This document shows positions 4,064 to 57,780 of a stretch of 64,000 nt of DNA, one piece after another (position 1 is the stretch's first letter; every line of letters begins with the position of its first letter). The DNA comes from Candidatus Baltobacteraceae bacterium (GTDB lineage: Bacteria > Vulcanimicrobiota > Vulcanimicrobiia > Vulcanimicrobiales > Vulcanimicrobiaceae), in NCBI GenBank assembly GCA_036489885.1, contig DASXEW010000003.1:1674001-1738000 (forward strand), written 5' to 3'. Both the position numbers and the translations under genes were made by a program. The notes beneath the pieces are model-generated. The model saw only the letters and a program-made list of their open reading frames with translations, did no database searches and was not told the DNA's origin.

Positions 4064-5632
4064 ATGCGTATCGGCGCGATCGACGTTGGGACGAATTCCA
4101 TCCACTTGATCGTTGTCGAGGTCGATGCAGAGTCGATGTCGACACGCACCGTCTTCAAGGCGCGCGAAATGGTGCGCCTCGGTGCCGATGATGCGCTCGA
4201 AGGCGGGATGCTCGGGAAGCGAGCGATCGCGCGTGGTGTAGAAGCAATCGCACGCTTTGTCCGGCTCGCGCACGAACGCGACGCCGAGCGCATTCGCGTC
4301 GTAGCAACGTCGGCAGTGCGTGAAGCCCGTAACGGCGCCGAATTCGCGAATGAAATTGAACGTTCGTGCGGTGTTCCGCTTGAAGTGCTCGACGAGCACG
4401 AAGAAGCGCGGCTAATTTATCTCGGTGTAACGCGGAATTTTCCGCTACACGACCGGCTCGCGTGCATCATTGACATCGGTGGCGGCTCAACCGAATGGAT
4501 CGTCGCCGATGATCGGCGTCCGTACTTGCTCGAAAGCGTCAAGCTCGGGAGTCTGCGGCTATACGACGCGTTTTTGCGCGGGGACGAACCGCCGTACGAG
4601 CGATATCCGGAGCTTGTCGGCCACATCAAGACGCTATTGACGCCGCTCGTCGAGCGGCTGCGTCAGTTCGATTGCGATCTAGTGATCGGAACGTCAGGAA
4701 CGATCATGGGTCTGGCTGCGCTCGACGCCGGCGACCAAGGAACGCGTCCGGGAATCCACGGTCACGCACTGACGCTCGAGCGGCTGCGAGTGCTCCAGGC
4801 CAGGATGCTGACGCTGACCGAGGCGCAGCGACGCGCACTACCCGGGATGAACGCGCGTCGCGCCGACATCATCATTGCCGGGGCCGCTGTTTTGATCGAA
4901 GGCTTGGTCGGGATCGGCGCGCGGGAGATCGTCGTCAGCCAGCACGCGCTGCGTGAAGGCGTCGTCGTCGACCTTGTGCAGGCCGACGCCGACATCGTGC
5001 GCCGGCTCGATGTTTTGCGGGCGCGCCGTCGCGAATCGGTTGCTTCGCTCGCGCGGCGCTACCAAAGCAGCGGCCTGCACGAACGCAGCGTCGCGCGTCT
5101 TGCGTTGCGTATCTTCGATGAGCTCTCGCCGCACATCCGGACGAGTCCGGTCGATCGCGAGCTGATTCACGCGGCCGCGCTGCTTCACGATATCGGAAAG
5201 TTCGTGAACCCCAGCGCCCATCACAAACACGGCGCCTACCTTATACGAAGCAGCGCGCTCGACGGTTGGAGCGACCCGGAACGAGAGCTACTTGCAACAA
5301 TCGTGCGCTATCACCGCAAAGCGTTACCAAAAGTGACACACCCCGAATGGATGGCATTCGGAACGCTGGAGCGTGATCGCGTCGCACTCCTGGCAGGAAT
5401 CCTTCGTGTTGCGGATGGTCTTGACGTTCGTCAACAGGGGATTGTGAGCGACGTGCGCGTTCGCTGGGGTCCTGCAGCCGTTGCGATAGAAGTCGAAGCG
5501 AACGACACCCAAAGCAGTGGCGATCTTGCATCTGAGATCGCAGCCGCGGGATACAAGGCGGACCTTCTTGCAAAAGCGCTCGGAATGGCAGTGATTCCGC
5601 GGGGAGTCGCGGCCATCTCGGCAGAAACGTAG
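4064..5632 (+). CDS. ppx: Ppx/GppA exopolyphosphatase with C-terminal HD domain
   Basis: This 522-aa protein has an N-terminal actin/hsp70-fold Ppx/GppA domain. The phosphate loops are IDVGTNSIHLIVVEV near the start and IDIGGGSTEWIV near residue 140. A C-terminal HD-type domain carries HAAALLHDIGKF near residue 370 and RYHRK. It should hydrolyse terminal phosphate from polyphosphate and/or pppGpp. It lies directly upstream of phoB (6 bp gap), tying polyphosphate turnover to the Pho regulon. Architecture and length match the long Ppx class. Confidence 0.85.
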   Translation: MRIGAIDVGTNSIHLIVVEVDAESMSTRTVFKAREMVRLGADDALEGGMLGKRAIARGVEAIARFVRLAHERDAERIRVVATSAVREARNGAEFANEIERSCGVPLEVLDEHEEARLIYLGVTRNFPLHDRLACIIDIGGGSTEWIVADDRRPYLLESVKLGSLRLYDAFLRGDEPPYERYPELVGHIKTLLTPLVERLRQFDCDLVIGTSGTIMGLAALDAGDQGTRPGIHGHALTLERLRVLQARMLTLTEAQRRALPGMNARRADIIIAGAAVLIEGLVGIGAREIVVSQHALREGVVVDLVQADADIVRRLDVLRARRRESVASLARRYQSSGLHERSVARLALRIFDELSPHIRTSPVDRELIHAAALLHDIGKFVNPSAHHKHGAYLIRSSALDGWSDPERELLATIVRYHRKALPKVTHPEWMAFGTLERDRVALLAGILRVADGLDVRQQGIVSDVRVRWGPAAVAIEVEANDTQSSGDLASEIAAAGYKADLLAKALGMAVIPRGVAAISAET

Positions 5633-5638
5633 GCGCTC

Positions 5639-6343
5639 GTGACCACACTCGCCACCACAACAAAACGCATCTTGGTCGTCGACGACGAGTCGGCGATTTT
5701 GCAGACCCTGCGCTTCAATCTCGCGCGAAGCGGCTATCAGGTCAGTACTGCAGGAGATGGGCGTACTGCGCTCGCGCTTGTTGCAAGCGAAGAACCGAAC
5801 CTCGTGATACTCGACATCATGCTGCCGGTGCTCGACGGCATCGAGACGTGCAAAGAGATTCGCCGTCACAGCAACGTGCCGATCATCATGCTGACCGCAA
5901 AAGACCAGGAGATCGACAAAGTCGTGGCGCTTGAGATCGGCGCCGATGACTACGTTACAAAGCCGTTCTCGCTGGCTGAATTCATGGCGCGAGTAAAAGC
6001 GGCCTTACGACGTGCGGAAAAACCGCAGATCAGCGAGCGCGACGAACCGATCGTCGCCGGCGAGATTACCCTCGATCCATCGCGGCATCTGCTGCTGGTG
6101 CGGGGACATGACGTCCAGCTGGCCCCCAAAGAATTCAGCCTGCTGCACGTGCTGATGGAAAACAAGGGCCGGATCGTGACGCGGCAGATGCTGCTCGAAA
6201 AAGTCTGGGGTTACGATTTCGAAGGCGAGCATCAGACGATCAGCGTTCACGTTCGCTGGCTTCGCGAGAAAGTCGAACTCGATCCGAATAACCCGCGGCA
6301 TATCATCACGGTCCGCAGCCGCGGCTACATGTTCCGGGAATAG
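5639..6343 (+). CDS. phoB: Phosphate regulon response regulator PhoB-like (OmpR family)
   Basis: This 234-aa protein has a receiver domain with acidic pair VVDDES (residues 13-18), phosphoacceptor Asp59 in LVILDIMLP, and Lys108 in TKPFS. A C-terminal OmpR/PhoB winged helix follows (KEFSLLHVL to RSRGYMF). The start is GTG 5639. Its stop TAG shares one base with the phoR GTG, so the pair is translationally coupled. Position between ppx and pst genes supports a PhoB role; the name is assigned by context because OmpR-family regulators look alike. Confidence 0.85.
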   Translation: MTTLATTTKRILVVDDESAILQTLRFNLARSGYQVSTAGDGRTALALVASEEPNLVILDIMLPVLDGIETCKEIRRHSNVPIIMLTAKDQEIDKVVALEIGADDYVTKPFSLAEFMARVKAALRRAEKPQISERDEPIVAGEITLDPSRHLLLVRGHDVQLAPKEFSLLHVLMENKGRIVTRQMLLEKVWGYDFEGEHQTISVHVRWLREKVELDPNNPRHIITVRSRGYMFRE

Positions 6344-22592: not shown

Positions 22593-23414
22593 CTACGCGT
22601 CGTTCGAAAACATCACCGAAATGCCATCAAGCGGGATGCCGTGCAGTGCCGTGTCCCAGCGCTGCCCTCTCACGGCGGGAAAGGCGCGCGTTAGCGTTCC
22701 GGTCGTGATGATCTCGCCCGCAGCAAGCGGCGGATTGTGCTGGTCGTGCCGCAATAGCTCGATCAGGTGCAGCAAGGCGTGCAACGGACCGTCGATGACA
22801 TTGGAGGCATGCCCGCGATCCATTTTCTCGCCGTTACGGGATAGCTCGATATCGAACGAGCACAACATGCGCGTCCATTCGGCGAGGTCTTGCGGCTGTT
22901 GTCGTTGCGGGCCCAGCAGGAGTGCACCATGCAGGCCGTTCGCGGCGACTGAATCGGCGGCCGTGAATTTCCATCCCGGAAAAATCGACTGGACGATCTC
23001 AAAACCGTGAGTTGCCCACTCGATCGACCCCAACAACTCTTCGGGCGACAAGCCTCCGCGCGGGACAGTGCGTAATTTGAACGCGATTTCCGGTTCGATT
23101 TGCGGTTCGCTGAACGCGTCGAGGGAAAATCCGCCGCCGACGTTCGACAGTTCGTGTGCCGTCGTGTCGTAAACGTAGCCCCAGATTGGGGCGAAAACGC
23201 CGTATTCACTCCAAATCCGTCGATTCGTAAATCCGATCTTGCGACCGACGACGCGTTCTCCTCGCGCCTCACGCAGCTCGCGCATTCGAGCAATGATGGC
23301 GTAAGCCTGATCCAGATCGAACGTCGCGTCCCCCTCTGAGAAGGGGCCGATTTGCTCGCCTCGATCGAGGGCTTCAAGGGTAGATTCCGCGATATCGGCG
23401 ACCGATGTTGTCAT
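22593..23414 (-). CDS. 2-Keto-4-pentenoate / 2-oxohepta-3-ene-1,7-dioate hydratase family (FAH fold)
   Basis: This 273-aa protein of the MhpD/HpaH hydratase family has DLDQAYAIIARMRELREARGERVVGRKIGFTNRRIW at the N-terminus, QIEPEIAFKL with metal-binding acidic residues, and IITTGTLTRAFPAVRGQRW at the end. It would hydrate 2-oxo-4-enoates formed after meta-cleavage of aromatics. The hpa operon at 53-58 kb lacks a hydratase, so this gene could supply the HpaH step; that link is inferred. It converges on the MmgE/PrpD gene with a 2-bp gap. Confidence 0.75.
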   Translation of the reverse strand: MTTSVADIAESTLEALDRGEQIGPFSEGDATFDLDQAYAIIARMRELREARGERVVGRKIGFTNRRIWSEYGVFAPIWGYVYDTTAHELSNVGGGFSLDAFSEPQIEPEIAFKLRTVPRGGLSPEELLGSIEWATHGFEIVQSIFPGWKFTAADSVAANGLHGALLLGPQRQQPQDLAEWTRMLCSFDIELSRNGEKMDRGHASNVIDGPLHALLHLIELLRHDQHNPPLAAGEIITTGTLTRAFPAVRGQRWDTALHGIPLDGISVMFSNDA

Positions 23415-49242: not shown

Positions 49243-50748
49243 TTAAATTTTGATGCTGAACGGGTCCCCGGCGACCGGTTCGGTTTCGATCCAGACCGAT
49301 TTCGTCTGCGTCCAGTCGTAGATCGCTTCGACGCCGTTCTCGCGCCCGATGCCGCTGTTCTTGTAGCCGCCGAACGGCATCTGATACGACATTGCTCGGT
49401 ACGTATTGACCCACACCGTACCAGCTTTGATGCCGCGCGCCATGCGGATCGCGCGCCCGATATTCGTCGTCCACACACCTGAGCCAAGTCCATACATCGT
49501 GTCGTTGGCGATGCTGAGAGCTTCGTCTTCATCCGTGAACGGAATCAGCGAAAGAATCGGGCCAAAGACTTCTTCGCGAGCGATCCGCATGGTGTTGTTC
49601 ACGTCTGCGAAGATCGTCGGCTCGTAATAGAAACCGCGCTGCAGGGCGGGGTCGGCCGGACGACGTCCGCCGGCGACGAGCTTTGCGCCGTCGCCTTTGC
49701 CGACCTCAACGTACTGCTGGACCTTCGCGTACTGCGGCTCGTTCGATATCGGGCCCATCTCCGTCTCCGGAAGCAGCGGATCGCCGATCTTGACGGTTTT
49801 GGCGCGTGCCATCAACCGTTCTTGCACTTCGGCGTAAATCTCGCGCTGCACGAGCGCACGCGAACCCGCGATGCAGGTTTGTCCGGCCGCAGCAAAGATG
49901 CCGGAGAGCAGTCCGGAGACCGCCGCGTCGAGCGGTGCGTCGGCGAAGACGATGTTCGGCGATTTTCCACCAAGCTCGAGTCCGACCGTGGCATAGTGTC
50001 CGGCGGCGGCTTGCGCGACACGCGCGCCCGTACCGGCGCTGCCCGTGAACGCGATGCGCGCCACCGACGGATGCTTCGTGAGCGCATCGCCGGAGACGGC
50101 GCCGCTGCCGGTCACGACGTTGAACACGCCTTTCGGGAAACCGGCGGCTTCGATGCATTTCGCGAACTCGAGTGATGAGACCGATGCGAATTCACTCGGT
50201 TTGAGGACGACGGTGTTTCCGGCTGCGAGGGCAGGCGCGAGCGTGAACGCGAGGATGAGGAGCGGCGAGTTCCACGGCGTGATGAATCCGACAACGCCGA
50301 GCGGCTCGCGCAGCGTGAAATTGAAGAGCGTCGGACGTTCCATCGGGATCGTCTCGCCTTCGATCTTGTCCGAGAGGCCCGCGTAGTAGCGATACCAGCC
50401 GGGAATCGCGCGCAATTGCGCGCCCATCTCGCGCAGCAGCTTCCCGTTGTCTCGTACTTCGATCTCGGCAAGCTCAGCGGCACGTGCTTCGATGGCGTCC
50501 GCGAGCTTGTGCAGCAGTCGTCCGCGCGTGGCGGGCGTCGTTTTGGACCACTCGCCTTCGAATGCGCGTTTCGCAGCTCGTACGGCTGCGTCGACGTCCT
50601 CGGCGCTCGCATCGACAATCGTCGCCCACGTCTCGCCGTTGGCCGGATTGATGACGGGAAGCGTCTTCGCGCCGCCCGAGTTCCGGTATTCACCGTCGAT
50701 GTAGAGACCGTACTCGGTGACCTTTGCGTCGCGAACCTCGACTGCCAT
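49243..50748 (-). CDS. NAD(P)-dependent aldehyde dehydrogenase
   Basis: This 501-aa ALDH has PWNSPLLILAFTLAPALAAGNTVVLKPSE, VGLELGGKSPNIVF with catalytic Glu, FAAAGQTCIAGSRALVQ with catalytic Cys, EEVFGPILSL and the C-terminal MPFGGYKNSGIGRENG. In this position it could be the 5-carboxymethyl-2-hydroxymuconate semialdehyde dehydrogenase (HpaE) of the hpa operon on the other strand, but the family is broad. It is divergent from the CitE-like gene; the in-frame ATG of that gene falls 82 bp away. Confidence 0.85.
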   Translation of the reverse strand: MAVEVRDAKVTEYGLYIDGEYRNSGGAKTLPVINPANGETWATIVDASAEDVDAAVRAAKRAFEGEWSKTTPATRGRLLHKLADAIEARAAELAEIEVRDNGKLLREMGAQLRAIPGWYRYYAGLSDKIEGETIPMERPTLFNFTLREPLGVVGFITPWNSPLLILAFTLAPALAAGNTVVLKPSEFASVSSLEFAKCIEAAGFPKGVFNVVTGSGAVSGDALTKHPSVARIAFTGSAGTGARVAQAAAGHYATVGLELGGKSPNIVFADAPLDAAVSGLLSGIFAAAGQTCIAGSRALVQREIYAEVQERLMARAKTVKIGDPLLPETEMGPISNEPQYAKVQQYVEVGKGDGAKLVAGGRRPADPALQRGFYYEPTIFADVNNTMRIAREEVFGPILSLIPFTDEDEALSIANDTMYGLGSGVWTTNIGRAIRMARGIKAGTVWVNTYRAMSYQMPFGGYKNSGIGRENGVEAIYDWTQTKSVWIETEPVAGDPFSIKI

Positions 50749-53057: not shown

Positions 53058-54014
53058 ATGCGATTTGCGATTCTTGGTGCGGGTGGTATCGGAGCGTATT
53101 TAGGCGCGCGGCTCGCGACGGCCGGAGAAGACGTCGTTCTCGTCGCGCGCGGCGATCATCAGCGAGCGATGGCGGCGCGTGGCGTGCAAGTGCACGATGC
53201 GGATGGCACGCGTACCGTGAAGCTACCGGCACTCGCGCCGAACGAGTCGTTCGCGCCGGCCGACGTCGTCGTCATCACCGCCAAAGCGCACGACATCACG
53301 GCGATGCTTCCGCAGATTCGCGCGGCCGGAAAACCGAACGCGCTGATCGTTGCTGCGCAAAATGGAATTCCGTGGTGGTATTTTCAGTGTCACGGCGGCA
53401 AGCTCGAAGACCTCGTGCTCGAATCGGTCGATCCCAGCGGAGTACTGGCGAAAGAGATCGATCCGAATCGCGTCGTCGGCTGCGTCATTTATTGTCCGAT
53501 CACGCTCATGGGTCCAGGAATCGTCGAACACCAAGGTCCCAAGCGTCTCGAAATCGGACGGCCCGACGGAAAGATCACGCCGGAGCTCGATACACTCGCG
53601 GAAGCGTTTGAACGCGCCGGCTTCGCCGCGCCGCGCAGTGAAAATTTGCGCAAAGAGATTTGGGTCAAGCTGCTTGCTAACGCACCACTCAACCCGATCG
53701 GCGCGCTCGTGCGCAAGACCTCGGGTGAGATTGCCGAGGTTCCCGCCGGGAAGCAGCTGGTCGGCGAGATCATGCACGAATGCCTGGCGGTCGCCGCCGC
53801 GACCGGCCTGCGGCTCGATATCAGCGTCGAAGCACGTCTGGCGCAGATACCCGGCCAGGTCGGAAGGCACAAATCATCGATGCTGCAAGACGTCGAAAAA
53901 GGCCGGCGCGTCGAAATCGACGGCTTGGTCGGCGCGGTCGTCGAGCTCGGGGATCGCCTCGGCGTCGACATTAAAGCCTTACGCTACGTCTACATGCTTG
54001 CGCAACTGCTTTAA
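53058..54014 (+). CDS. 2-Dehydropantoate 2-reductase family (PanE/ApbA-like)
   Basis: This 318-aa protein has a Rossmann motif MRFAILGAGGIGAYLGARLA, the catalytic-lysine region LRKEIWVKLLANAPLNPIGAL (KxxxKxxxN pattern) and the C-terminal domain with GRHKSSMLQDVEKGRRVEIDGLVGAVVELG. Ketopantoate reductase for CoA synthesis is the reference activity. It is the first gene of the hpa operon (hpaF starts 14 bp later), so a catabolic 2-oxoacid substrate is also conceivable. Confidence 0.85.
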   Translation: MRFAILGAGGIGAYLGARLATAGEDVVLVARGDHQRAMAARGVQVHDADGTRTVKLPALAPNESFAPADVVVITAKAHDITAMLPQIRAAGKPNALIVAAQNGIPWWYFQCHGGKLEDLVLESVDPSGVLAKEIDPNRVVGCVIYCPITLMGPGIVEHQGPKRLEIGRPDGKITPELDTLAEAFERAGFAAPRSENLRKEIWVKLLANAPLNPIGALVRKTSGEIAEVPAGKQLVGEIMHECLAVAAATGLRLDISVEARLAQIPGQVGRHKSSMLQDVEKGRRVEIDGLVGAVVELGDRLGVDIKALRYVYMLAQLL

Positions 54015-54028
54015 GGACGGACCTTACG

Positions 54029-54415
54029 ATGCCGCACATCACGATCGAATGTTCCGAAAACGTACGAGATCACGTCAACGTCGATAAGCTTCTCCGGCAT
54101 GTCCATGACGCAGCGATCGAGACGGGTGTTTTCCCGCCGGACGGAATTCGTTCGCGCATCCACATTCTGGAACATTACCGCGTGGCCGAATCCGGGAAGA
54201 ATGCATTCGTCCACGCCGTACTGCGCATCGGTCCCGGCCGGGATCAGGAAACGAAACGGCGCGTGCTCGATCACGTCTTCGCCGCGCTGACGGAGTCTTT
54301 GCAGAAGATGTATGATTCGCAACCGCTCGCGATCTCGATCGAGCTGCAAGAGCTGGATTCCGATCTGCGGCGCAACCAGAACAATCTCAAAGCGAGCGTG
54401 GCGGCCGCGCGATGA
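54029..54415 (+). CDS. hpaF: 5-Carboxymethyl-2-hydroxymuconate isomerase
   Basis: This 128-aa protein of the tautomerase superfamily reads MPHITIECSENV, so after Met removal the catalytic Pro1 is N-terminal, as in CHMI. Downstream it has VDKLLRHVHDAAIETGVFPPDGIRSRIHILEHYRVAE and ETKRRVLDHVFAALTESL. It converts CHM to OPET (2-oxo-hept-3-ene-1,5-dioate form) in homoprotocatechuate degradation. It overlaps the dapA-like gene by 4 bp. Confidence 0.85.
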   Translation: MPHITIECSENVRDHVNVDKLLRHVHDAAIETGVFPPDGIRSRIHILEHYRVAESGKNAFVHAVLRIGPGRDQETKRRVLDHVFAALTESLQKMYDSQPLAISIELQELDSDLRRNQNNLKASVAAAR

Positions 54416-55323
54416 ATCCTCCCGAATGGCTGCGCGGCTCGATGCCCCCGCTGGTCACGCCGTTCGCCGACGGGAACGTCGATACAGTAGCGTACGCGCG
54501 GCTCGTCGAGCTGCAAATTGCGGGCGGCTCGCAGGGTATCGTGGTCAACGGTACGACCTCTGAGCCTTCGACGCTCTCCGTCGACGAGCGCAACGCGCTG
54601 ATTGACGTTGCGGTGAAGACGGCGAACAAGCGCATTCCGATCGTCGCCGCGACCGGTTCACAGTCGCTTGCCGAGACCGCCCTGTTGACGCAACATGCCA
54701 TGCGCGCCGGCGTCGATGCACTCTTGATCGTGACGCCGTATTATATCCGTCCGCCGCAACGGGGGCTCATCGAATATTATCTGAGCGTCACGCGCGGGCT
54801 GCATATCCCGTGGATGATCTATCACATTCCAGGACGCACGGCAGTAAGCGTCGAGGTGGAGACGGTTCGAAAACTCGCCGAGCTTTCGCCCACGTTCGTT
54901 GGGATGAAACATGCCTCGACCGATCTCGCGTACGTTTCCGATCTGCTCGCACACTTGCCCGAGCTGCGCATCTTCGTCGGGTTGGAAGAACTCAGTTTCC
55001 CGATGATGGCGCTCGGCGCCGTCGGATTGATGAATGCCGTCGGGAATCTCAATCCGCGTGTCCTCGCCGAGATGTGTGATGCCGTCTGGAGCGGCGATCT
55101 CGCGCGCGGGCGCGAGATGCACGAACGATTGCTCGAAGTGAACAAAGCCGTCTTCTTCGATACGAACCCGATCCCGATCAAGTACATGATGAAGCGGCTC
55201 GGCATTCTTGCGCGAAACGAGCATCGTCTGCCGATGGTACCGGCCACGCCGGAGCTTGAGCGAAGGCTCGACGGCGTTTTGGAACGTGCCGGGATGTTGG
55301 CTGAGGCCGCTCGGACGGCGTGA
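54412..55323 (+). CDS. DapA-family class I aldolase in the hpa operon
   Basis: This 303-aa TIM barrel of the dihydrodipicolinate synthase/N-acetylneuraminate lyase family has GTTSEPSTLS (usual GTTGE), the Tyr segment MIYHIPGRTAVS, and the Schiff-base lysine in FVGMKHASTD. The position between hpaF and hpaG suggests it may act on the pathway's 4-hydroxy-2-oxo acid (the HpaI aldolase step) rather than in lysine synthesis. That is inferred; a plain DapA is the alternative. It overlaps both neighbours by 4 bp. Confidence 0.75.
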   Translation: MNPPEWLRGSMPPLVTPFADGNVDTVAYARLVELQIAGGSQGIVVNGTTSEPSTLSVDERNALIDVAVKTANKRIPIVAATGSQSLAETALLTQHAMRAGVDALLIVTPYYIRPPQRGLIEYYLSVTRGLHIPWMIYHIPGRTAVSVEVETVRKLAELSPTFVGMKHASTDLAYVSDLLAHLPELRIFVGLEELSFPMMALGAVGLMNAVGNLNPRVLAEMCDAVWSGDLARGREMHERLLEVNKAVFFDTNPIPIKYMMKRLGILARNEHRLPMVPATPELERRLDGVLERAGMLAEAARTA

Positions 55324-56018
55324 GGGTTGCAGAATTCGAGGCTCAGCGCTTCACGCCGCCGATCGCACTGCGCGGCAAGATATTTTGCATAGGCGTCAAT
55401 TACGGCAATCGAAACGCGGAATATAAGGACGGCACCGACCAACCGAAATATCCGAGCGTCTTCATGCGCACGTCCGGATCGCTCGTCGGCGACGGCGAGA
55501 AGATTCTGCGTCCACCCGAATCGGAGCAGCTCGACTATGAAGGCGAGATCGTGCTCGTGATCGGAAAGCGCGGGCGGCGCATTCCGCGCGAATCGGCGCT
55601 CACCCACATCGGTGGGCTGACGTGCGGCAACGAGGGCAGCGTTCGCGACTGGATGCGTCACGGCAAGTTCAACGTCACTCAGGGTAAGAATTTCGAGCGC
55701 TCCGGTGCGATCGGACCGGCGCTGGTAACAGCCGATGAGTTCAAGCGCTTCGACGATCTTCGTGTCACGACGCGCGTCAACGGCGAGGTTCGCCAAGACG
55801 ACACGACCGCGAATCTGATCTTCCCGTTCGATTATCTGATCTCATATATCTCGACGTTCTCCGAGCTCGCACCGGGCGACGTCATCTTCACAGGCACGCC
55901 CGTAGGCTCCGGCGCGCGTTTCGATCCGCCGCGGTATCTGCGGGCGGGAGACGTGGTCGAAGTCGAAGTAGGCGGGATCGGCGTGCTGCGCAATACAGTC
56001 GCCGACGAGCAGGTGTAA
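55320..56018 (+). CDS. hpaG: Fumarylacetoacetate-hydrolase-family protein (HpaG-like decarboxylase/isomerase)
   Basis: This 232-aa FAH domain has FCIGVNYGNRNAEY, EQLDYEGEIVLVIGKRGRRIP with metal-binding acidic residues, LTCGNEGSVRDWMRHGKFNVTQGKNFERSGAIGPALVTADEF, and PGDVIFTGTPVGSGARF. HpaG decarboxylates OPET (5-oxopent-3-ene-1,2,5-tricarboxylate). E. coli HpaG is a fusion of two FAH domains; this is a single domain. The name is by context. The GTG at 55320 overlaps the previous stop. Confidence 0.78.
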   Translation: MRVAEFEAQRFTPPIALRGKIFCIGVNYGNRNAEYKDGTDQPKYPSVFMRTSGSLVGDGEKILRPPESEQLDYEGEIVLVIGKRGRRIPRESALTHIGGLTCGNEGSVRDWMRHGKFNVTQGKNFERSGAIGPALVTADEFKRFDDLRVTTRVNGEVRQDDTTANLIFPFDYLISYISTFSELAPGDVIFTGTPVGSGARFDPPRYLRAGDVVEVEVGGIGVLRNTVADEQV

Positions 56019-56029
56019 GGAGCAAGCGC

Positions 56030-56896
56030 ATGTCCTACCTCACGAACGTCAACGTCATCCCGTCCCACATCCCGGCCGAGGATCTAAAAACGTTCGGAAC
56101 GCTCGAATCGTACGAAGAGTACATTCAGAATCAGGCGCGCGACACCGAGCAGTTGCTGCAAAAATATCGTGCCGCGAAAGTCCACGACCCCAAGCTTTCC
56201 AAAGAATATCGTGAAGCGATGCGCCCGATCATGGTGACGACGTGTTGGGGCGAAGCCCAGACGGCCAGCCAAGTTGCGCAGATCATCACCAAAACCAACA
56301 AGCCGAGCGTGCAGTATTTCTATACGACGCACGCGATCGACGAAACGCGCCACACGCAAATCGAGTGGCGGCGCATCGAAGACCTGCAGCTGGCGGATTC
56401 GCTCGACGTGCCGTACGAACAAACGGAACTCTTCCGTTTCGTGAACGGGCTGCCGACTTTCCTAGAGATCGTGTACGGTCAAGTCTGCACGCTCGAAGCC
56501 TACTCGGCGCACGTTCTCTTCAACTCGATCATCGAGCTTGCGAAGAATGCTGGTGATCTCGCCACCGCAGTAACCTACGAGCACGTCATGCACGACGAAG
56601 TCCGGCATATCGGCGTCGGCTTACGCCTGGTGCGCGAAGCGATCGAATCGGCGCCCGACCCGGAAGAAGCAAAGTTCCGCATTCTCGATCTCGAGGAGAA
56701 GCTCTTGCCGATTACGATTCGCAAACTCGGCCGCGAGTCGAAGATCGCGGAGTCACTCTACGAGTACGGGCTCATCAAGAGCAAAGCCACCTTCGAAGAA
56801 GACGGCTGGCGGCAATTCCTCACGTTTCGCTCGAAGATCGGCGTTCTGCCGCCGATGCGTTTCAAAGGTCCGTTGCCCGAACCCAGCGTCGCCTAA
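56030..56896 (+). CDS. Di-iron ferritin-fold protein resembling multicomponent monooxygenase alpha subunits
   Basis: This 288-aa all-helical protein has a complete carboxylate-bridged di-iron set: Glu75 (CWGEAQ), Glu105/His108 (DETRHTQIEW), Glu156 (CTLEAYSAH) and Glu190/His193 (HDEVRHIG). Spacing within the pairs (30 and 34 residues) equals that of toluene 4-monooxygenase alpha (E104/E134, E197/E231). The segment LEAYSAHVLF...NAGDLATAVTYEHVMHDEVRH is BMM-like. It is much shorter than BMM alpha chains (~500 aa), and no reductase or coupling protein gene is adjacent. It is likely an oxygenase acting on a phenylacetate or phenolic substrate before HpaD. BoxB- or AurF-type enzymes are alternatives. 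Confidence 0.7.
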   Translation: MSYLTNVNVIPSHIPAEDLKTFGTLESYEEYIQNQARDTEQLLQKYRAAKVHDPKLSKEYREAMRPIMVTTCWGEAQTASQVAQIITKTNKPSVQYFYTTHAIDETRHTQIEWRRIEDLQLADSLDVPYEQTELFRFVNGLPTFLEIVYGQVCTLEAYSAHVLFNSIIELAKNAGDLATAVTYEHVMHDEVRHIGVGLRLVREAIESAPDPEEAKFRILDLEEKLLPITIRKLGRESKIAESLYEYGLIKSKATFEEDGWRQFLTFRSKIGVLPPMRFKGPLPEPSVA

Positions 56897-56901
56897 GCCG
56901 C

Positions 56902-57780
56902 GTGCTCGTCGCAGGTCTGTTCTCGACGCACGTTCCGCGCCTGATGATCCTCGATCCCGAGGCGCGGCGCGCCTACATGGGAAAAAACGTCACGACGTTT
57001 TACGACGCGCTCGAAGAGATTCGTGCCAAACGCATTGCGTCGCTCGATTTCGATACGTTCGTCATCGTTGATACGCATTGGCACACGACCCTGGATTTCG
57101 TCGTGAACGCTGGCGAGCGTTTACAGGGCGTCTATACGTCGGATGAGATTCCCGACATGCTGCACGAGTACGAGTACGACTATCCCGGCGATCCGGAGCT
57201 CGCCGATGCGATCGTAGCCGAGGCGCAAGCCGGCGGCGTCCCGGCCGTTACGTCGCGCCATCGCGGATTGCCGGTACATTACGGGACCCTCAATCCGATG
57301 CACTACTACAACCCGGGTCCGAACAGGAAGCGCGTCCTCTCGATCAGCGTCTGCGACACGGCGGAGGTCGAGCCGAATCTCACGCTCGGTGAAGCGATTG
57401 CTCGTGCGGCGCAACGCATCGGCCGTCGCGCGCTTCTGATCGCGAGCGGCGGAATGTCACATCGCTTTTGGCCGCTTGCGACGATCCGTGCTCGCGCAAG
57501 CGCCGATCCTTCCGATATCTCCTCGCCGAAGTTGCGCGAGTGGGACGAGCGGATCATGGAATGGTGGAAAAACGGCGATCACAAGAGCGTGCTCGCTGCA
57601 GCCGAAGAATTCCGTCGCGAATGTTCACCCGAAGGACGCTTTGCGCACTACCTCGTGCTCGCCGGTGCATTCGGACGCGAGTCGTTCAAGACGCGGGGCG
57701 AGCAATTCGGCCGTTATGAGGCCGCTATAGGAACCGGGCAGAGCAATTTCTGGTTTGCCGTCAATGGATCAGAGCGTTAA
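56902..57780 (+). CDS. hpaD: 3,4-Dihydroxyphenylacetate 2,3-dioxygenase (LigB-type extradiol)
   Basis: This 292-aa protein matches E. coli-type HpaD along its length: STHVPRL (metal His), VIVDTHWHTTLDF, GVYTSDEIPDML, HYGTLNPMHYYNPG, LLIASGGMSHRF, and GTGQSNFWF at the end. It cleaves homoprotocatechuate at the 2,3 bond using Fe2+. Start GTG 56902, 5 bp after the di-iron gene. The 3' end overlaps a convergent gene by 12 bp. Confidence 0.88.
   Translation: MLVAGLFSTHVPRLMILDPEARRAYMGKNVTTFYDALEEIRAKRIASLDFDTFVIVDTHWHTTLDFVVNAGERLQGVYTSDEIPDMLHEYEYDYPGDPELADAIVAEAQAGGVPAVTSRHRGLPVHYGTLNPMHYYNPGPNRKRVLSISVCDTAEVEPNLTLGEAIARAAQRIGRRALLIASGGMSHRFWPLATIRARASADPSDISSPKLREWDERIMEWWKNGDHKSVLAAAEEFRRECSPEGRFAHYLVLAGAFGRESFKTRGEQFGRYEAAIGTGQSNFWFAVNGSER

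Follow-up and report, generated by a model that had tools for sequence, protein, structure and literature searches.

Analysis of a 64,000-nucleotide stretch (the window) from the genome of a soil bacterium of the little-known phylum Eremiobacterota reveals, within a run of genes resembling the hpa genes of homoprotocatechuate meta-cleavage, a gene for a compact di-iron protein. We propose, with a probability of about 0.5 from sequence and structure models, that it is a one-subunit di-iron monooxygenase of the BMM-alpha type, making a catechol for the HpaD-like enzyme encoded next to it. It is quite probably an oxygenase of the HpaD pathway, working one step ahead of HpaD, and the chance that its substrate is a hydroxyphenylacetate falls only slightly short of even.

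The gene run and its position in the window

The features on which the argument draws are the following.

53058–54014, plus strand: ketopantoate-reductase-like dehydrogenase, head of the gene run (PF02558/PF08546)
54029–54415, plus strand: hpaF-like 5-carboxymethyl-2-hydroxymuconate isomerase (PF02962, 7.6e-37, above cut-off)
54412–55323, plus strand: DapA-fold aldolase, nearest to 2,4-dihydroxyhept-2-ene-1,7-dioate aldolase (PF00701, 7.4e-73; TIGR02313, 284 bits, cut-off 397)
55320–56018, plus strand: hpaG-like fumarylacetoacetate-hydrolase-family isomerase/decarboxylase (PF01557, 3e-67; TIGR02303, 150 bits)
56030–56896, plus strand: candidate compact di-iron protein of 288 aa with a BMM-alpha-like core (PF02332, ligands, fold searches)
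56897–56901, plus strand: 5 bp separating the di-iron gene from the hpaD-like gene (operon continuity); acidobacterial loci carry a 92-aa ferredoxin gene at this place
56902–57780, plus strand: hpaD-like class III (LigB) extradiol ring-cleavage dioxygenase (PF02900, 6.5e-38; TIGR02298, 182 bits, cut-off 316)
49243–50748, minus strand: aldehyde dehydrogenase, possible stand-in for HpaE (TIGR01804, 544 bits; TIGR02299, 502 bits; both below cut-off)

From the ketopantoate-reductase-like gene to hpaD neighbouring plus-strand genes overlap or are no more than 14 bp apart, and the tight packing that an earlier note on this DNA had claimed is borne out (11 bp from the hpaG-like gene, 5 bp to the hpaD-like gene). 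That the di-iron gene is more than a chance reading frame is confirmed by an uninterrupted translation of 288 aa with strong GC3 bias across the frame, by its PF02332 match and by the place beside hpaD that it keeps elsewhere.

The families HpaD, HpaE, HpaF, HpaG and HpaI are all represented. Because the window HpaD, HpaG, HpaF and aldolase fall short of the NCBIfam equivalog cut-offs, the hpa names are meant at family level, and homoprotocatechuate is less than certain. The hpaG-like protein is 61% identical to the fumarylacetoacetate hydrolase of an hpaE-hpaD-hpaH cluster of Ruegeria pomeroyi, and a gene resembling the ketopantoate-reductase-like one is also annotated in the hpa cluster of Sphingobium TomTYG64. 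The local aldehyde dehydrogenase may take the HpaE step; the window genome holds no closer HpaE orthologue elsewhere (best identity 43%). Some 30 kb off lies a 2-keto-4-pentenoate-hydratase-family gene (22593–23414, minus strand; the best match is TIGR03220 with 108 bits, HpaH gets 68 bits, and none reaches its cut-off); it may supply the pathway with a hydratase.

Ligands and motifs

The ligands claimed earlier, E75, E105, H108, E156, E190 and H193, stand in the translation at exactly these positions with the in-pair spacings of 30 and 34, which we take to match the numbering of TmoA (for TmoA, AurF, R2 and ADO we use background spacing values, not computed ones). All six are invariant in 16 of 16 aligned sequences from two phyla, at identities down to 60%; since about half of the alignment columns are invariant at this depth, ligand invariance alone is weak evidence. 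It is rather the duplicated DExRH motif, together with the PF02332 match, that carries the case for the family. The motif occurs, invariant, in both half-sites (D104-E105-x-R107-H108 and D189-E190-x-R192-H193), as well as in MmoX, to judge from the alignment, and in a PrmA-like protein of another Eremiobacterota genome (G117). In the predicted model the ligands sit on helices 58–87, 92–118, 144–174 and 177–206. Two E...EXXH half-sites on a predicted four-helix core place the protein in the O2-activating ferritin-like di-iron carboxylate superfamily; the protein would probably hold iron.

Family and fold

A placement among non-oxygenase ferritins or desaturases would have spoken against the earlier reading; Pfam gives PF02332, Phenol_Hydrox (3.6e-10; 40.3 bits against a cut-off of 24.4); the acidobacterial homologue in locus L009 matches this family separately (E 1.9e-9). 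Profiles of AurF, DUF455, Ferritin and R2 match below cut-off, PF05138 (PaaA/BoxB) gives no match at E ≤ 1, neither PF03241 nor PF11794 (HpaB flavin monooxygenase) matches, and NCBIfam has no model for the protein. Direct sequence search of the PDB returned marginal matches only and no close solved relative, while a profile search of the PDB put methane monooxygenase alpha (MmoX) first, as a marginal match with DExRH aligned to DExRH.

Two AlphaFold models, of the window protein and of the acidobacterial homologue, are almost all helical (mean pLDDT 80, pTM 0.78). Their Foldseek neighbours in the PDB are class Ic R2, PhN, T4MO, ToMO and ADO (E about 1e-5 to 1e-3, probability 1.00), the alignments to BMM alpha reaching only about 16–19% identity; with the second, acidobacterial model ADO structures top the matches. 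Thus the structure prediction suggested by the earlier note confirms, at the level of models, a fold of the O2-activating di-iron branch, but it does not choose among BMM, ADO and R2, which are about equally close. What favours BMM alpha is the 30/34 spacing, together with a DExRH in each half. An hhalign comparison with the PrmA-like alpha subunit of G117 brought only the DExRH neighbourhoods into register, with probabilities of 4% and 13%; given so shallow a profile (Neff 1.4) and an N gap in the contig, this is not independent proof. G117 itself lacks the compact di-iron gene and carries a propane-monooxygenase-like BMM (L065, L080, C201) made up of the alpha subunit with the N gap, a reductase and a beta subunit, followed by a chaperonin gene.

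With the alpha subunits of BMM (TmoA, TouA, DmpN/PhN, MmoX, PrmA) the protein thus shares spacing, duplicated motif, Pfam family and fold, as well as a setting in aromatic catabolism. It differs in length, having 288 aa instead of an alpha subunit of about 500 aa accompanied by a beta subunit, and the C-terminal half of alpha is missing. What we take to be the position of the BMM active-site Thr is Ala160. BMM systems further comprise beta and gamma subunits, an effector and an FAD/2Fe-2S reductase, whereas no such genes lie near the di-iron gene: no second PF02332 protein was found in the window genome or the other di-iron-bearing Eremiobacterota genomes searched, and neither an MmoB-like effector nor an FAD/2Fe-2S reductase gene in the window or the related loci. 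We infer that a BMM-alpha-like core devoid of these BMM-defining partners would work like a BMM hydroxylase, and we do not file it as a member of BMM.

Other compact di-iron proteins offer partial parallels. BoxB with BoxA, and PaaA (PF05138 epoxidases), are likewise compact oxygenases with electron transfer of the 4Fe-4S ferredoxin type, yet the substrates of BoxB and PaaA are CoA thioesters, BoxA has the form of a fused reductase, and their family is not the one matched here. ADO, class Ic R2 and the R2-like ligand-binding oxidase are single-subunit di-metal proteins of ferritin-like fold, and ADO draws its electrons from ferredoxin, as the proposed enzyme would; however, these proteins show 14–19% identity, another ligand spacing and no tie to aromatic catabolism.

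Distribution and linkage with hpaD

Among 149 genomes of Eremiobacterota, the phylum of the window genome, the di-iron gene is present in 14; it also occurs in two of 396 sampled Acidobacteriota genomes, where the protein is 63% identical. When 84,980 species genomes were scanned with peptide patterns, close relatives turned up in these two phyla only; distant relatives are invisible to such a scan, so the family may be wider. Neither a tblastn search of plasmids with the protein nor a scan of IMG/VR with its profile gave a match.

The linkage with hpa genes in relatives on which the earlier reading depended is present, with hpaD-type genes and in two phyla. HpaD-like genes are found in 14 of the 149 Eremiobacterota genomes, 13 of which also have the di-iron gene, and the two Acidobacteriota genomes with the one gene are also the only two with the other. 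These counts overstate independence, as the genomes are related; the link spans at least four genera and two phyla. Where the flanks are readable, hpaD lies directly 3′ of the di-iron gene (or of the ferredoxin gene) on the same strand in 13 of 15 loci; in one locus (L003) the same genes are divergent, and in G123 (L057) the di-iron gene stands apart from HpaD. In G076, the one di-iron genome of Eremiobacterota outside the shared 13, the di-iron gene lies at a contig end, and the hpaD side is beyond view. The usual cassette in both phyla reads aldolase-HpaE-diiron-(ferredoxin)-HpaD, with HpaE 5′ of the di-iron gene and the DapA-fold aldolase there too in several loci; the acidobacterial HpaE scores 620.8 against an equivalog cut-off of 638.4. 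From one pair of genomes to the next, the divergence of the di-iron protein correlates with that of HpaD (r = 0.97; 0.91 within Eremiobacterota), as would be expected of co-inherited genes.

Several neighbours deserve mention in their own right. In L003, from one Eremiobacterota MAG, flavin-reductase-like and AMP-binding (acyl-CoA-ligase-like) genes follow the di-iron gene at 4870–5418 and 5470–6165. In G123 (L057:3560–5599) the di-iron gene lies beside an acyl/acetoacetyl-CoA-synthetase-like gene, and hpaE-hpaD-aldolase are on another contig (L058). Each acidobacterial cassette is headed by a separate gene for a 270-aa di-iron protein that is PaaA-like (PF05138) (L009:5652–6464, L010:5690–6502). 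It stands alone, with no PaaB/C/D/E genes alongside, and is a further candidate for a compact di-iron oxygenase in the cluster. As an obligate partner of the di-iron protein it was rejected, being matched in only one of the 14 di-iron-bearing Eremiobacterota genomes (G125, 32%).

Electron supply and proposed reaction

The earlier note had also remarked that no reductase or coupling gene accompanies the di-iron gene. This holds within the window but not for the acidobacterial cassettes, in both of which (L009, L010) the di-iron gene is overlapped at its end by a gene for a 92-aa 2[4Fe-4S] ferredoxin, with hpaD next in line. Among curated proteins this ferredoxin is most like the ferredoxin-like N-terminus of BoxA, which passes electrons to the di-iron enzyme BoxB. 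Position and match together suggest a ferredoxin-fed oxygenase, and this ferredoxin is likely to be the electron donor of the acidobacterial protein. The cassettes of Eremiobacterota, the window included, contain no ferredoxin gene; these bacteria presumably use a housekeeping ferredoxin encoded elsewhere.

We infer both the monooxygenase activity and the electron donor. In the proposed mechanism a low-potential ferredoxin would supply two electrons to the di-iron site, O2 would be bound at the E75/E105/H108–E156/E190/H193 centre, and a para-substituted phenol would receive one oxygen atom at the position ortho to its hydroxyl group, giving a catechol. Toluene 4-monooxygenase, which converts p-cresol to 4-methylcatechol, provides an analogue. 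The most likely reaction would be that of 4-hydroxyphenylacetate (or 3-hydroxyphenylacetate) to homoprotocatechuate; HpaD would cleave the resulting catechol, and HpaE, HpaF, HpaG and the aldolase would finish the pathway. The carboxymethyl-hydroxymuconate type of the downstream enzymes favours 4-hydroxyphenylacetate, while another 4-substituted catechol is possible because all of them score below the NCBI equivalog cut-offs. Against the monooxygenase we count the lack of a beta subunit, regulator and reductase, Ala160, a fold search in which ADO and R2 do as well as BMM alpha, the ferredoxin-free cassettes of Eremiobacterota, the unlinked gene of G123, the HpaB-family proteins of G128 and the Acidobacteria, and the lack of a family member of known activity.

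The entry hydroxylase and alternative explanations

The place proposed for the di-iron protein is that of HpaBC, which supplies HpaD with homoprotocatechuate and, as a two-component flavin monooxygenase, belongs to an unrelated family. In the papers covered, the 4-hydroxyphenylacetate 3-hydroxylase is described only as a two-component flavin enzyme (for example PMC10816480, PMC10537072), and flavin hydroxylases for this substrate also figure in PMC7118221; our literature search, with most subscription journals outside its scope, returned no paper on a di-iron hydroxyphenylacetate hydroxylase or on an enzyme such as this one. HpaB is missing from the window genome (95.9% complete; neither PF03241 nor PF11794 matches), as it is from 13 of the 14 HpaD-bearing Eremiobacterota genomes. 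This is a weak argument, since few genomes of the phylum have HpaB at all (3 of 149), since one of these, G128, the only one of the three with HpaD, carries the di-iron gene as well, and since both di-iron-bearing Acidobacteria have HpaB-family proteins. Of the earlier picture of a compact di-iron hydroxylase, the hydroxylase-branch assignment (PF02332 and fold) and the linkage with hpaD-type genes in two phyla stand; co-occurrence with HpaD holds (13 of 14 and 2 of 2), and the supposed lack of hpaB holds for most genomes but lends little weight.

In G094, the only Eremiobacterota genome with HpaD but no di-iron gene, a cytochrome P450 gene (L051:3867–5204) lies divergent from hpaI-hpaG and may encode a replacement hydroxylase. 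More distant HpaD relatives (41%) on plasmids of Streptomyces canus (L091, NZ_CP107732.1) and Novosphingobium sp. EMRT-2 (L092, NZ_CP039697.1) are also clustered with P450 genes; as the G094 enzyme is of a different family from these (27–29% identity), the replacement idea rests on position alone. From such gene neighbourhoods the entry oxygenase beside this kind of HpaD looks exchangeable. The two plasmid clusters further contain glutamine-synthetase-family and acetoacetate-decarboxylase-family genes, with a gamma-glutamyl hydrolase in S. canus, and look like a route for the catabolism of a gamma-glutamylated aromatic amine.

It appears, then, that related HpaD enzymes serve different upper pathways, since these plasmid clusters combine P450, gamma-glutamyl and acetoacetate-decarboxylase-family genes. 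This leaves some room for another reaction of a same-pathway oxygenase, such as O-demethylation of a methoxylated phenol (e.g. homovanillate) or hydroxylation of phenylacetate or a substituted phenol, the catechol of HpaD not coming from 4-hydroxyphenylacetate. The sub-equivalog scores of HpaD, HpaG and the aldolase and the additional PaaA-like protein of Acidobacteria agree with it. Nevertheless we consider it unlikely, as the HpaF-family isomerase, the HpaG-like protein (61%) and the TIGR02313-like aldolase jointly fit a carboxymethyl catechol.

Since HpaD is the most constant partner of the di-iron gene, and the ferredoxin gene lies directly 5′ of hpaD, the protein might instead be a helper of HpaD: a ferritin-like scavenger of peroxide or oxygen, or an iron handler, keeping the Fe(II) dioxygenase active, with the acidobacterial ferredoxin playing an XylT-like part in the reactivation of HpaD. 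Weak matches to the Ferritin and Rubrerythrin profiles would fit such a role, but the DExRH is of BMM type, the Ferritin match lies below cut-off and is far outscored by PF02332, symerythrin as the nearest rubrerythrin-like relative in the PDB reaches only E 0.11, and classical HpaD operons have no helper of this kind, which makes it improbable.

That the protein is instead an N-oxygenase like AurF/CmlI, or an enzyme of the aldehyde-deformylating type, with a nitrogenous or aldehyde intermediate as its substrate, is very improbable: to the weak AurF match (PF11583, 18.8 bits against a cut-off of 29.6, E 0.001), the ADO structures heading the matches of the second model and the aldehyde dehydrogenase genes among the neighbours one can oppose an invariant Val186 at what we take to be the place of the seventh AurF-type ligand His, four residues before the second EXXH Glu, an operon devoid of amino-aromatic genes, and the shorter ligand spacing of ADO (about 28/29).

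Implications

The one-subunit BMM-alpha-type monooxygenase that we favour is, on the sequence evidence, a credible new variant of ring hydroxylase. A broader proposal, that in Eremiobacterota and some Acidobacteria the flavin enzyme HpaBC of the homoprotocatechuate pathway is replaced by an undescribed self-contained family of BMM-like di-iron aromatic hydroxylases, each a single hydroxylase subunit with a ferredoxin, is tentative and somewhat likelier to fail than to hold. BMM hydroxylases acting on methane, toluene and phenol have been studied as multi-subunit machines in which the effector and the beta subunit shape the active site. If our reading is true, BMM chemistry would be possible with neither of them, and a natural version of 288 aa would define the minimum and ease engineering. 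The entry hydroxylase of the homoprotocatechuate pathway would then be exchangeable between flavin, di-iron and perhaps P450 enzymes, and a blank in what is known of how a largely uncultured soil phylum breaks down aromatic compounds would be filled.
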